21,727 nucleotides of DNA. Origin: Flavobacteriaceae bacterium. GTDB lineage: Bacteria; Bacteroidota; Bacteroidia; Flavobacteriales; Flavobacteriaceae. Positions 14,735-18,840 of this stretch are shown here, one piece after another. Position 1 is the first letter of the stretch. Every line of letters starts with the position of its first letter. The translations under genes and the position numbers were made by a program. The notes beneath the pieces were generated by a model. That model did no database searches, was not told the DNA's origin, and worked only from the letters and a program-made list of their open reading frames with translations. The stretch covers positions 1-21,727 of the forward strand of contig JADHLU010000003.1 of assembly GCA_016780435.1 (NCBI GenBank). The letters run 5' to 3'.

Positions 14735-14771
14735 CACATTTGCTTTTTATAAATGCTTTTCTGTATTTAGC
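14735..14771 (+). promoter_or_regulatory. Candidate promoter of the aromatic operon
   Basis: CACATTTG (14735-14742) matches five of six fixed bases of TAnnTTTG and would start transcription about 30 bases before the leader ORF. An alternative reading uses its TTTG as a -33 box with the poorer TATTTAGC (14764-14771) as -7, 21 bases downstream, giving an almost leaderless leader ORF. Neither is strong. Confidence 0.3.
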
Positions 14772-14778
14772 GCGATAT

Positions 14779-14838
14779 ATGAAAAACACACTTCCAAAGT
14801 CATTCGCCTATTTTACCTTTTACCGCAGTTTGCGATAA
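14779..14838 (+). CDS. Phe/Tyr-rich leader peptide of the aromatic operon
   Basis: ATG to TAA encodes MKNTLPKSFAYFTFYRSLR, 19 residues. Phe, Tyr, Phe, Phe and Tyr fall within seven consecutive codons (14803-14823), with both Phe codons and both Tyr codons used. The ORF lies just upstream of a terminator and of pheA, the first of several Phe/Tyr biosynthesis genes. This is the composition expected of a ribosome-stalling leader peptide that senses charged tRNA-Phe and tRNA-Tyr. It is too short for ordinary gene finding. Translation is inferred from composition and position. Confidence 0.75.
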   Translation: MKNTLPKSFAYFTFYRSLR

Positions 14839-14903
14839 GGGGGCTTTTGTCATTTGGTGTGTCAAAAAATACTAAAGTCCCGATTCTTCGGGGCTTTTTT
14901 TTT
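14796..14903 (+). promoter_or_regulatory. Transcription attenuator controlling the aromatic operon
   Basis: Four segments can pair in alternative ways. Segment 1 is AAAGTC (14796-14801) inside the leader ORF just before the Phe/Tyr codons. Segment 2 is GGGGGCTTTT (14839-14848), starting right after the leader stop. Segment 3 is AAAGTCCCGA (14874-14883). Segment 4 is TCGGGGCTTT (14888-14897). Pairing 3:4 makes the terminator. Pairing 2:3 (14840-14847 with 14874-14881, eight pairs including one G-U) makes an antiterminator. Pairing 1:2 gives six pairs. A ribosome stalled at the Phe/Tyr codons would leave segment 2 free to capture segment 3; a ribosome reaching the stop would cover segment 2 and allow termination. 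The pairings are seen directly, the mechanism is inferred. Confidence 0.75.
14874..14903 (+). terminator. Attenuator terminator upstream of pheA
   Basis: A 10-bp stem AAAGTCCCGA / TCGGGGCTTT (one G-U pair) with loop TTCT is followed by a run of nine T residues (14895-14903). It ends 9 bases before the pheA start codon and has no plus-strand gene upstream except the leader ORF, so it must act on the operon's own transcript. Confidence 0.88.
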
Positions 14904-14912
14904 GATTAAACT

Positions 14913-15749
14913 ATGAAGGTAGGAATTCAGGGTATAGCCGGATCTAATCACCACAAGGTGGCCGTTCAATTTTATGGCTCGCAGCTTGATTGCGTCTGCT
15001 GCGATTCGTTTGCTGAACTGGCGGAGGGACTAAAGAACAGGCGCTTCGAAGAGGCCGTCATGGCTATTGAAAATTCAATTGCAGGAGCCATACTCCCTAA
15101 TTACGCGCTGATTTACACCAACGGATTTAAGATCACCTCTGAGTTTTACTTGAGCATTTCGCACAACCTAATGGCCCTTCCGGGTCAGTCGCTTGAGGCT
15201 ATTACACGAGTTGAGTCGCATCCAATGGCGCTCTTGCAGTGTGCCTCTTTTTTTGAGCAGCACAAATCCATCACCCTAGTAGAGGCCGATGATACCGCCT
15301 CTGTAGCTCAGCGCATTTCGGAAGCGAAGCGCATGGGTGTTGCGGCGATTGCTCCGCCTGAGGCTGCGAACTTGTATGACTTAGAGATTTTGGCCAACGA
15401 TATTCAAACCCTTAGCTCGAATGCGACTCGTTTTGTGCGCATCAAGAGGGCGGTTGAAGACGGATCTGTTGATCCAAAGGCCAACAAAGCCTCCATTAGA
15501 TTTGTGACCGGGCACAAGAGGGGAAGCCTGGCCACCATACTAAATGTGATGAGTGATTGTAACCTCAACCTCACGAAGATACAGTCGCTTCCGATTATAG
15601 AAACCCCGTGGAAGTACGCCTTTTTTGTAGACGTAACCTTCGAACAGACGAGTCAATTTCAAAAGGCTATGGCGGCTCTTGAAATAATGGCCGACAGCTT
15701 TACGCTGTTGGGAGTGTACACCAATCAACTTAAAACGAGCGAATCATGA
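14913..15749 (+). CDS. pheA: Prephenate dehydratase
   Basis: PheA converts prephenate to phenylpyruvate, the committed step to phenylalanine. Residues 1-180 are the catalytic domain: GIQGIAGSNHH at the start, AIENSIAGAI (51-60), SHNLMAL, ESHPMALLQC and the catalytic Thr-Arg-Phe (172-174) in SSNATRF. Residues 193-270 form an ACT domain that would bind Phe for feedback control. Its GSLA stands for the usual GALV/GSL motif, but the second regulatory motif reads IQSLP where many homologues have ESRP, so the feedback site may differ. There is no chorismate mutase domain; that activity is carried by the DAHP synthase fusion downstream. The gene starts 9 bases after the attenuator T-tract, and its stop overlaps the next start as ATGA. 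Confidence 0.95.
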   Translation: MKVGIQGIAGSNHHKVAVQFYGSQLDCVCCDSFAELAEGLKNRRFEEAVMAIENSIAGAILPNYALIYTNGFKITSEFYLSISHNLMALPGQSLEAITRVESHPMALLQCASFFEQHKSITLVEADDTASVAQRISEAKRMGVAAIAPPEAANLYDLEILANDIQTLSSNATRFVRIKRAVEDGSVDPKANKASIRFVTGHKRGSLATILNVMSDCNLNLTKIQSLPIIETPWKYAFFVDVTFEQTSQFQKAMAALEIMADSFTLLGVYTNQLKTSES

Positions 15750-16894
15750 GAGAAGCCAAGAGACTGAAGCGGGTCAGCGAGTACTACTTTTCGAAGAAGC
15801 TGAAAGAAATTAAGGCGCTCACGGCTGCCGGATCGCCCATCATTAACATGGGAATCGGAAGTCCAGACTTGGAGGCTCCGTCTTCAGCCATAGGCGGGCT
15901 ACTAGAGGCGCTCTCTGAAAAGGGCGTACACCAGTATCAGAGCTATGTTGGACGAGATGAGTTGAGGGCGGCCTTTGCGCAGTTTTACCAAACACACTAT
16001 CAGGTAAAATTAGATCCAACTCATGAAATTCTTCCACTGATGGGATCTAAAGAGGGTATTTTTCACATCAGTATGGCTTTTCTCAATGCCAAAGACGTGG
16101 TGCTCATTCCGAATCCAGGCTACCCGACCTATGAGGCTGTCGCCCGATTGGTTGGCGCGCGCGCTGTTTTTTACCCCTTAGATGACAAGGGGCTGCCTGA
16201 TTTTTCAACCATCGATCCCAAATTATTAGAGCGGGCGGTGCTCATGTGGGTGAATTATCCGCATATGCCCACAGGCATCACCATAGGCCCCGACGGGTTT
16301 AAGCACATCATCGATTTGGCCAAGAAACACGACCTACTGGTGGTAAACGACAATCCGTATAGCTTTATTGGAAACGATAAGCCCACTTCAATTTTGGCAC
16401 ACACCCAAGGCTATAAGAACGTGTTAGAACTCAACTCGCTCAGCAAGGTCTTCAATATGGCCGGTTGGCGCGTGGGAGCCTTAGCAGGATCTAAGACGCT
16501 CATTCAGTCGGTTTTAAAGGTTAAATCGAATATGGATTCTGGAATGTTTTTTGGCATTCAACGCGCTGCGGCTAAGGCCTTAGCTGAACCCAAGTCGTGG
16601 TTTGTTCAACTCAATGAAGTCTACATGCAGCGCAGAAAATTGGTCGAGCTGTTGGCCAAGTCATTGAAACTCGAGGTGGAGCCCGGTCAGACTGGAATGT
16701 TTGTGTGGTGTAAACTGCCCAAGGGCGTGCAGAGCGAGGCTTTTGCCGACAAGCTTCTCAGCGAATATGCGCTGTTCTGTGCACCCGGATTCATCTTCGG
16801 ATCTGAAGGCAAGAATCACGTGCGTTTTTCGCTCTGCGTCACGGCAGATCAGATCGAGAAGGCTATCATGCGTGTAAAAACCAAGAAATTATGA
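15746..16894 (+). CDS. Class I/II PLP aminotransferase, likely aromatic
   Basis: This fold-type I aminotransferase of 382 residues shows NMGIGSPDLEAP near the N-terminus, substrate/cofactor segments PNPGYPTYE and WVNYPHMPTGI (with Asn170), Asp202 and Tyr205 in NDNPYSF, the Schiff-base Lys234 in NSLSKVFNMAGWRVG, and the carboxylate-binding Arg in NHVRFSLC. By sequence style it resembles aspartate and LL-diaminopimelate aminotransferases. Placed between pheA and tyrA with four-base overlaps on both sides, it most plausibly transaminates phenylpyruvate and hydroxyphenylpyruvate (or prephenate) in the last step to Phe and Tyr. That substrate assignment is inferred from context. Confidence 0.9.
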   Translation: MREAKRLKRVSEYYFSKKLKEIKALTAAGSPIINMGIGSPDLEAPSSAIGGLLEALSEKGVHQYQSYVGRDELRAAFAQFYQTHYQVKLDPTHEILPLMGSKEGIFHISMAFLNAKDVVLIPNPGYPTYEAVARLVGARAVFYPLDDKGLPDFSTIDPKLLERAVLMWVNYPHMPTGITIGPDGFKHIIDLAKKHDLLVVNDNPYSFIGNDKPTSILAHTQGYKNVLELNSLSKVFNMAGWRVGALAGSKTLIQSVLKVKSNMDSGMFFGIQRAAAKALAEPKSWFVQLNEVYMQRRKLVELLAKSLKLEVEPGQTGMFVWCKLPKGVQSEAFADKLLSEYALFCAPGFIFGSEGKNHVRFSLCVTADQIEKAIMRVKTKKL

Positions 16895-17748
16895 AACTGG
16901 CTGTAGTAGGTGTGGGGTTGATCGGTGGGTCTTGGGCGAAGGCTCTTAGAGAACACGCACTGGTCACCGAGGTTCTGGGAGTAGACCGCAGCGAACAGCA
17001 TTTAGAGCAGGCTATGAAGCTTGGGATAATTGATCGGGCCGTTGATTACAATCAACTCGCGGAAGCTGACCTCGTATTTGTAAGTATTCCGGTAGATCAG
17101 TTGGTGCTCGAATTGCCCAAGATTTTGGATGCCGTTGGGCCGACCACTCTGGTCATGGATGCGGGCTCTACTAAGCTGGCAATTTGTGCTTCAGTGGCTG
17201 AGCACCCAAAAAGAGCTCATTTCTTAGCGGCACACCCCATAGCCGGAACCGAGTTTTCAGGCCCAAATGCGGCAATAGCCGACCTGTATAAGGACAAGTT
17301 GGCTATAGTTTGTGAGATCGAGAAAACGGCCATAGACCTACAAGAGCGTGCAATGAATGCCTTTGCTGCCCTGGGTATGCGTGTGCGATACATGGGTGCC
17401 AAGGAGCACGATGTACATGTGGCCTATGTCTCTCACCTTTCGCACATCAGTGCATTTATGCTCGGAAAGACCGTAATGGGCAAAGAGAAAGACGATCGCA
17501 CTATTTTTGACTTAGCCGGCAGTGGATTTGCCTCTACCGTACGCCTTGCAAAGAGTTCCCCGCAGATGTGGGCTCCGATTTTCGTTCAGAACAAAGAACC
17601 CTTATTAGAGACGCTCGAGGCGTTTATCGAACACCTTATTGCCTTTAAAGACCTGATCGAAAACGAAGACACACAGGGCCTTACCGAAGAAATGAAACGC
17701 ATAAATAGCATAGAAAAAATATTAAACCCTTTACCTTTAAAGCCTTAA
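16891..17748 (+). CDS. tyrA: Prephenate dehydrogenase
   Basis: TyrA oxidatively decarboxylates prephenate to 4-hydroxyphenylpyruvate with NAD(P)+, leading to tyrosine. The N-terminal Rossmann motif GVGLIGGSWAKAL (residues 7-19) is followed by VSIPVDQ, VMDAGSTK and the active-site segment AHPIAGTEFSGP with catalytic His115. The helical C-terminal dimer domain contains AYVSHLSHISAF (179-190) and DLAGSGFASTVRLA, both conserved. The 285-residue length fits a monofunctional enzyme, without the chorismate mutase or ACT domains seen in some lineages. The start overlaps the aminotransferase stop as ATGA, and the next gene begins nine bases after its stop. Confidence 0.95.
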   Translation: MKLAVVGVGLIGGSWAKALREHALVTEVLGVDRSEQHLEQAMKLGIIDRAVDYNQLAEADLVFVSIPVDQLVLELPKILDAVGPTTLVMDAGSTKLAICASVAEHPKRAHFLAAHPIAGTEFSGPNAAIADLYKDKLAIVCEIEKTAIDLQERAMNAFAALGMRVRYMGAKEHDVHVAYVSHLSHISAFMLGKTVMGKEKDDRTIFDLAGSGFASTVRLAKSSPQMWAPIFVQNKEPLLETLEAFIEHLIAFKDLIENEDTQGLTEEMKRINSIEKILNPLPLKP

Positions 17749-17757
17749 ATCACAATC

Positions 17758-18840
17758 ATGGAAAATTCGAAAAAGTTTCGTAGCTGGTTAGATGAGATGC
17801 AGTTGACGCATCCGCTCGTTATCGCAGGGCCCTGCAGTGCTGAGACCGAGTCTCAGGTCATGCAGATTGCCCACGACCTAAAAGATACAGATGTCAATTA
17901 CTACCGCGCAGGTATATGGAAGCCTAGAACGAGGCCTGGAAATTTCGAGGGAGTTGGAGCCATAGGGCTTAAGTGGCTTCAGCGCGTCAAAGAAGAAACG
18001 GGTTTAAAGACCGCCACCGAAGTCGCCAACCGCGCACATGTCGAACTGGCACTTGAATACGATGTAGATCTGTTGTGGATAGGTGCCCGATCGACGGTAA
18101 GCCCGTTCATCGTTCAAGAAATAGCAGATGCTTTAGAGGGTACCGACAAAGTGGTTCTGGTTAAGAATCCGGTCAACCCCGACCTTTCGCTCTGGATAGG
18201 GGCCGTAGAGCGCCTGCACAACGCCAACATCGAAAAGCTAGGAGTCATTCATCGCGGATTCTCTTCGTATAAGAAGACCAAATACCGCAACCTGCCTGAA
18301 TGGCAAATCGCCATTGACTTGCAGTCAAAGTACCCAGATCTGCCTATTATCAACGATCCTAGCCACATTTCTGGAAGAAGAGATTTGATATTTGATGTCT
18401 CACAGACCGCACTCGATTTGAATTTCGATGGGCTCATGATAGAGACGCATTGCGACCCAGACAATGCGTGGAGCGATGCCGCACAGCAGGTGACGCCTAC
18501 GCGTCTTCAGGAGATCTTCAAAGACCTCAAGGTGCGTAAGCGCGGAGACGATCAAGCCGATTTTCACGCTTCCTTAGACCATTTACGTGCTCAAATCGAC
18601 GTACTCGATTCGTCTATCTTGGATACGCTAGGAGAGCGCATGACCGTAGCCAAGTCTATTGGTCAACTCAAGAAAGACCGCAACGTGGCCGTTTTACAGT
18701 CTAATCGTTGGAACGAGATACTCGGAAGAATGATACTTGAAGGAGAGCAGCGCAACCTTAGCGAAGAGTTCATTTTAAAGCTCTTCAAGAGTATTCACCA
18801 AGAGTCTATTCGCCATCAAGAAAAGATCATGAACCCATAA
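17758..18840 (+). CDS. Bifunctional DAHP synthase (type I-beta) / chorismate mutase
   Basis: One chain carries the first step of the shikimate pathway and the branch step to prephenate. Residues 1 to about 262 are a type I-beta DAHP synthase: IAGPCSAET (22-30), GIWKPRTRPGNFEG (52-65), TATEV, WIGARST, LVKNP, IHRGFSS, NDPSHISGRR and MIETHCDP give the phosphoenolpyruvate, sugar-phosphate and metal sites. Residues about 270-355 are an AroQ-type helical chorismate mutase with LRAQIDVLDSSILDTLGERM, AKSIGQLKK and the RWNEILGRM helix. The same fusion order is known in Bacteroidota (Prevotella and Porphyromonas enzymes), where prephenate binding at the mutase domain inhibits the synthase; similar control is likely here. 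It supplies the mutase that PheA and TyrA lack. Confidence 0.95.
   Translation: MENSKKFRSWLDEMQLTHPLVIAGPCSAETESQVMQIAHDLKDTDVNYYRAGIWKPRTRPGNFEGVGAIGLKWLQRVKEETGLKTATEVANRAHVELALEYDVDLLWIGARSTVSPFIVQEIADALEGTDKVVLVKNPVNPDLSLWIGAVERLHNANIEKLGVIHRGFSSYKKTKYRNLPEWQIAIDLQSKYPDLPIINDPSHISGRRDLIFDVSQTALDLNFDGLMIETHCDPDNAWSDAAQQVTPTRLQEIFKDLKVRKRGDDQADFHASLDHLRAQIDVLDSSILDTLGERMTVAKSIGQLKKDRNVAVLQSNRWNEILGRMILEGEQRNLSEEFILKLFKSIHQESIRHQEKIMNP

Follow-up and report, generated by a model that had tools for sequence, protein, structure and literature searches.

A candidate ribosome-mediated attenuator with an aromatic leader peptide upstream of pheA in Flavobacteriaceae

The window, by which we mean the whole analysed stretch of 21,727 nucleotides from a Flavobacteriaceae bacterium (contig JADHLU010000003.1), carries a short ORF and a terminator in front of a four-gene operon. 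By their Pfam assignments, the genes of this operon make Phe and Tyr, the two amino acids that the control codons of the short ORF specify. The next gene after the operon is rsgA, and the gene upstream of the leader encodes a deoxynucleoside kinase on the opposite strand. The features are as follows.

14739..14770, + strand: Bacteroidota-type promoter-like element, TTTG at 14739-14742 and -7-like GTATTTAG at 14763-14770, from the sequence pattern
14779..14838, + strand: leader peptide ORF MKNTLPKSFAYFTFYRSLR, 19 codons, ATG at 14779 and stop TAA at 14836-14838, read from the sequence
14788..14801, + strand: segment 1, 5' arm of the protector, ACAC...CCAAAGTC, from the predicted fold without ribosome
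14803..14823, + strand: control codons Phe-Ala-Tyr-Phe-Thr-Phe-Tyr, from the sequence, aromatic pattern identical in L001-L005
14839..14848, + strand: segment 2, 5' arm of the antiterminator, GGGGGCTTTT, adjoining the leader stop, from its predicted pairing with segment 3 and from own-versus-swapped pairing in relatives
14852..14862, + strand: 3' arm of the outer 1:2 helix, ATTTGGTGTGT, from the predicted fold
14874..14883, + strand: segment 3, AAAGTCCCGA, both terminator 5' arm and antiterminator 3' arm, from the sequence and the relatives' pairing
14888..14903, + strand: segment 4, terminator 3' arm TCGGGGCTTT (14888-14897) plus T run, from the sequence and the relatives' pairing
14913..15749, + strand: pheA, prephenate dehydratase (PF00800, 3.2e-51) with a sub-threshold ACT-domain match
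15746..16894, + strand: class I/II aminotransferase (PF00155)
16891..17748, + strand: tyrA, prephenate dehydrogenase (PF02153, PF20463)
17758..18840, + strand: DAHP synthase fused to chorismate mutase, the pathway entry enzyme (PF00793, PF01817)

Direct reading confirmed the 19-codon ORF of the original prediction, with Phe or Tyr at leader codons 9, 11, 12, 14 and 15, five of seven. The terminator spans 14874-14903, with the loop TTCT and nine T at 14895-14903, and nine bases separate its end from the pheA start. Sequence and pairing thus point to an intrinsic terminator between leader and pheA. The leader RNA is about 125 nt long, half of it ORF. The TTTG box at 14739-14742 is taken by us to be part of a Bacteroidota promoter pair. 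The -7-like box ends 8 nt 5' of the leader ATG, with letters and distance identical in L001-L005; because this distance is so short, the leader transcript in the window and L001-L005 may be nearly leaderless. Since the upstream deoxynucleoside kinase gene lies on the other strand, a separate promoter is expected for the leader, and the promoter-like element suggests a transcription start just 5' of 14779. The near sample consisted of pheA loci in named genomes, limited to the best 80 of 552; the five closest are 94 to 73% identical, and with the window the sample makes 81 near loci. A TAnnTTnG-like element (a passage of PMC9723704 gives the consensus as TAnnTTTG) lies 17-19 nt 5' of the ATG in 59 of the 81 and at other distances in 15, and the pattern search found none in 7.

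All 80 nearest pheA relatives (best 80 of 552) have both a terminator and an aromatic leader ORF, which begins with GTG in L049. The leader-plus-terminator detector, whose thresholds were chosen after the relatives had been viewed, was positive in 81/81 near loci. Among 733 stretches 5' of other mechanical ORFs of at least 120 aa, taken from both strands of these loci, it was positive in 1, and among 3700 block shuffles in 5. The aromatic leader by itself is not significant, because an ATG ORF with at least as many aromatic codons in 12 occurs in 52 of 400 dinucleotide shuffles of the 300 bases 5' of pheA, a T-rich stretch. Hence, at the level of sequence, it is the comparison with relatives and not the Phe/Tyr cluster that carries the case for an attenuator. 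The same shuffles would suit an ordinary terminator accompanied by a chance ORF, with no regulation at all. So would locus L119, which has the same sequence type of terminator 5' of pheA but no aromatic leader ORF; it lies farther away than the nearest relatives, among which no locus had kept the terminator while losing the codons or the pairing arm, the pattern that the original prediction had named as contrary to it. However, a chance ORF is hard to reconcile with 80/80 relatives against 1/733 other ORFs, with an antiterminator matched to its own terminator arm (below) or with the opposite strand of the upstream kinase gene, and we give this explanation almost no credence.

The short leader form of the window is common to L001-L005. 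In most other near relatives the leader has about 23 residues (typically MTxTYFWNGFYFYFFFKRGTGLF), and its last codons contain segment 2, which is thus not 3' of the stop. Phe and Tyr are both present in all 81 near leaders and in 58 of 59 leaders from the order and class samples described below; Trp is present in 68/81 and 23/59, respectively.

The coding character of the leader was examined in alignment A1, which holds 68 of the 78 distinct near leaders (81 in all) and excludes the window, L001-L007, L039 and L061 as differently built. Over codons 5-16, changes at positions 3, 2 and 1 numbered 77, 35 and 30. Sixty of 116 changed codons were synonymous, as against 13 of 108 possible single changes, 21 of the 56 non-synonymous changes replaced one aromatic residue by another, and all gaps (three rows) were 3 nt long. 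Because third-position, synonymous and aromatic-swap changes dominate, the leader of the A1 relatives, a set outside the window clade, is seen to evolve as a coding sequence with conserved aromatic codons, and this selection points to translation of the short ORF, which has many codons for the regulated amino acids. A conserved peptide might also act by itself. TnaC senses Trp by nascent-chain arrest, and an aromatic peptide stalling in the ribosome tunnel would sense the free aromatic amino acid and not tRNA charging. The leader peptide is indeed very similar within the main group, with Trp in most leaders, yet the aromatic residues replace each other, and leaders of the wider samples differ widely in length and in their remaining residues but retain the aromatic run. 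The 1:2 helix may account for part of the Trp-Asn-Gly conservation, and arrest at high amino acid would be expected to switch a biosynthetic operon on when it is unneeded. We therefore consider nascent-chain arrest improbable.

Covariation analysis of A1 (68 rows) supported the terminator strongly. For 3:4, seven pairs changed on both sides, giving 28 double-change cells versus 7.2 in shuffles (0/500). For 2:3, 96.2% of the cells pair, and three pairs gave 5 double-change cells versus 0.5 in shuffles (0/500); these cells count sequences, not events. In both helices, sliding the partner left at most 63% of the cells paired, down from 96%, and cost at least half of the covariation score, the 2:3 score being 0.143 against a maximum of 0.072 in slid versions. 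The double-change count of 2:3 cannot single out the true register, because slid versions, though far less paired, reach 13 (+1) and 11 (+3) cells against 5. The original prediction had proposed testing both pairings for covariation in relatives and had placed GGGGGCTTTT directly 3' of the stop, pairing with the terminator 5' arm; the sequence at 14839-14848, the folds and the paired 2:3 cells agree with it, and both covariation counts exceeded the shuffles. The 1:2 protector helix was 89.2% paired in A1, with 5 double-change cells versus 2.5 (39/500), a weak signal, and for the Tyr-Phe/GAAGTA hairpin of the main group covariation was not above shuffles. The sequence comparison therefore backs 3:4 strongly, 2:3 clearly and 1:2 weakly.

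Exchange of the pairing arms between sequences gave a second view of the antiterminator. In 59 order and class sequences, the duplex of own arms was more stable than that of swapped arms (-14.33 versus -9.10 kcal/mol, permutation sd 0.35, 0/2000), whereas the control region gained nothing (-4.95 versus -5.26). The 76 distinct near sequences showed a small gain (-12.42 versus -12.04, 0/2000 permutations). Own arms had no advantage in the eight distinct sequences among the window, L001-L007 and L039 (-11.23 versus -11.59, equalled by 1959 of 2000 permutations), perhaps because these sequences are too alike. For 1:2, six window-clade sequences gave -12.8 versus -11.5, in the expected direction, the set being too small to count.

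A protector 1:2 hairpin is predicted in the window and six relatives, and the outer helix in the window joins about 14788-14791 with 14859-14862. The third copy of the arm, AAAGTC, is present inside the leader at 14796-14801 as originally described, but its exact letters recur only in L001 and L002, and the window fold extends beyond AAAGTC/GGCTTT. L003-L005 have AAAATTC or AAAACTC, and in their predicted folds the early-leader helix still encloses segment 2. The complete 1:2:3:4 layout first proposed was thus right as a layout, with comparison backing 3:4 and 2:3 more firmly than 1:2. At the Trp codon, TGG is replaced in 4 rows by a TAT or TTT that has a pairing partner, but 20 of 68 rows are unpaired there; conservation of this codon may be due to the 1:2 helix instead of Trp sensing.

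Folds of the window RNA were calculated with an assumed ribosome footprint of 14 nt, counted from the first base of the A-site codon. RNA ending with segment 3 takes the antiterminator fold while the ribosome occupies codons 8-16 (-13.2 to -17.3 kcal/mol; -13.2 at codons 12-16). The antiterminator is weaker at codon 17 (-9.1) and absent from codon 18 onward. In the ribosome-free RNA, segment 2 is locked in a fold of -20.1 kcal/mol. The stalled-ribosome folds thus reproduce the switch in the model. The complete leader RNA adopts the terminator as its minimum-energy fold at each ribosome position tried; antitermination must therefore be kinetic, the antiterminator winning in time. Folds, covariation and duplexes together argue for an antiterminator that would exclude the terminator.

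Given the parts, their conservation, the coding selection in relatives and the matching change in 2:3 and 3:4, all of them observed in the sequences, we conclude that the element is very probably a ribosome-mediated transcription attenuator with an aromatic leader peptide. We propose that transcription would begin just 5' of 14779 and that a ribosome would start the leader peptide. When charged tRNA-Phe or tRNA-Tyr is scarce, the ribosome would stall at codons 9-15, covering segment 1 and leaving segment 2 free to pair with the emerging segment 3. The terminator would then be blocked, and RNA polymerase would read into pheA, the aminotransferase gene, tyrA and the DAHP synthase-chorismate mutase gene. 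When both charged tRNAs are plentiful, the ribosome would reach the stop codon and cover segment 2, so that 3:4 forms and transcription terminates 5' of pheA. Without translation, segment 1 and the arm 3' of segment 2 would lock segment 2 away and the terminator would remain. We infer the transcription start, the stalling, the read-through and which amino acid matters most from these features.

The gene order aminotransferase, tyrA, DAHP synthase behind pheA is kept in 77 of the 80 nearest relatives (best 80 of 552), and the other three show fewer genes, perhaps owing to a contig or locus end. DAHP synthase-chorismate mutase was present in 60 of 61 order and class operons examined, the single exception being a sequence that ends early, and is the most constant operon partner. 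tyrA was found in 41 of the 61 by tblastn with the window TyrA as query, which may miss distant forms. Since its most constant partner is the entry enzyme, the leader probably governs pathway entry too, and from its sequence context we read it as probably matching pathway entry and PheA to the aromatic supply. The claim that one leader governs the Phe and Tyr branches holds in that the operon contains both, but the reach is wider. The idea that Tyr codons track the presence of tyrA, suggested by locus L184, where the leaders have Phe codons without Tyr and the search for tyrA gave nothing, was rejected, because the Tyr share of Phe plus Tyr codons is equal with tyrA (0.42, 39 loci) and without it (0.42, 19 loci) in the 58 of 61 loci having enough sequence.

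The distribution was followed in two wider samples. The class sample covered 197 genomes from the class of Pelagihabitans (L008), of which 57 gave a prephenate dehydratase; for the other 140 the search output held no such match, through true absence or a missed match. The module was detected in 39 of these 57 loci, or 42 counting L109, L116 and L126, where it is plain by eye and outside the detector limits, and was not found in 15. The order sample held 56 loci, of which 55 were examined (one truncated match was left out) and eight were shared with the class sample. The module was detected in 27 of the 55 and not detected in 28, namely 13 genomes of about 0.6 Mb, 12 with a PheA at most about 32% identical to that of the window, and L149, L172 and L182. 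A covariance model was built from 68 near sequences, window clade excluded. Its top match in the window was the element itself (14777-14901, E 3.5e-5), and it matched 36 of 56 class loci at E of 0.1 or lower, all having the leader by detector or by eye; in this set the detector loci L111, L117, L120 and L137, and also L126, were unmatched. These matches suit a common origin, but shared T-rich codons could contribute to them.

The leader attenuator was not detected in any of the 13 order-sample genomes of about 0.6 Mb that have a prephenate dehydratase (L146, L148, L151, L153-L157, L160, L161, L163, L164, L167), as if lost with genome reduction.

Two consecutive leader-terminator modules precede pheA in L121 and L136 and, partly by eye, in L120 and L126. 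Three modules were found in L184 (about 1120-1535), and L185 has them in the same place. Own-arm duplex energies in L121, L136 and L184 range from -9.0 to -13.6 kcal/mol, a range without a separate control. The three leaders of L184 have Phe and no Tyr, and tyrA was not found downstream. From their sequences we regard tandem modules, up to three, as candidates. Apparent double modules in L084 and L093 were set aside, because their upstream modules look accidental, with a poor aromatic run and a terminator that is either weak or far off.

Leader attenuators of trp, his and pheA, such as pheL of E. coli, are of a textbook kind, and attenuators have reportedly been mentioned in Bacteroidetes/Chlorobi by Vitreschak and others in 2004. 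A 2010 study (PMC2965389), in the passages considered, gave leader-peptide systems as known only from Proteobacteria and Actinobacteria and added Firmicutes, and a passage of a 2013 survey (PMC3766115) proposed a possible origin of amino-acid attenuators in gamma-proteobacteria, with few transfers. The original prediction likewise took its classical examples from Proteobacteria, but attenuation in Bacteroidota is not unheard of. Passages of PMC9723704 (2021) describe leader-peptide clues 5' of amino-acid operons in one flavobacterium and a conserved structured element 5' of pheA in Flavobacterium psychrophilum and other Flavobacteriaceae genera, with no Rfam hit. Part of PMC7366714 reports leader-peptide-like small ORFs in Bacteroides, and a table in PMC2864571 lists the Bacteroid-trp RNA motif (RF01692) as a predicted cis-regulatory RNA of Bacteroidetes. 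Likened by its description in those passages, the F. psychrophilum pheA element is probably the same as ours; they give it without codons or pairings. Among the matches listed in a literature search of freely available papers, only PMC9723704 names pheA with leader attenuation in this phylum, and none gives an account of the element's codons, pairings or spread. The element is therefore not new in kind; what the present analysis adds are its codons and pairings, how widely it is spread, the coevolution of its arms, the mixing of Phe, Tyr and in part Trp codons, and the candidate tandem forms. A probable attenuator with matched parts is spread here through a Bacteroidota class.

Going further, we consider it evenly balanced whether a single aromatic-sensing attenuator, old in the class, reads Phe and Tyr (often Trp) jointly and thereby adjusts DAHP synthase and PheA, lacking Shine-Dalgarno initiation and hence needing a first ribosome that keeps up with RNA polymerase, with some lineages stacking two or three such modules before one operon as a multi-step attenuator. 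To our knowledge, transcription-translation coupling has hardly been studied in Bacteroidota. As an attenuator of this type needs a ribosome close behind RNA polymerase, it would provide a direct test of coupling there.

Searches with known RNA families bear on a further explanation, namely that the terminator is controlled by a riboswitch or T-box, an RNA binding a metabolite or tRNA, and that the ORF is incidental. The F. psychrophilum pheA element is listed among structured 5' cis-regulatory RNAs in part of PMC9723704, in keeping with such a view. Against it, neither the window nor the pheA leaders of 13 relatives matched any Rfam family at its cut-off, T-box and riboswitch families of Rfam 15 included for the window at gathering score, half of the short leader is ORF, and this ORF is under coding selection; a binding RNA is accordingly very unlikely. 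The Phe_leader model (RF01859) gave a weak match at 14795-14903 (27.9 bits, E 0.0099, 361 bases searched), below its gathering cut-off of 55 bits. E. coli pheL, which this family represents, likewise has leader peptide, antiterminator and terminator 5' of a Phe biosynthetic gene, and a protector, which in the window is a predicted fold. Compared with it, the present element has mixed Phe/Tyr codons, a longer operon with tyrA and DAHP synthase, and a host phylum with mRNAs lacking Shine-Dalgarno sequences (passages of PMC6847099 and PMC9976891). Bacteroid-trp, likewise a predicted Bacteroidetes cis-regulatory RNA, by its name points to trp and had no match in the window. In the 10 kb loci round pheA of the relatives, SAM-II riboswitch matches were observed in L006 (3376-3434), L007 (1324-1381) and L061 (2363-2422).
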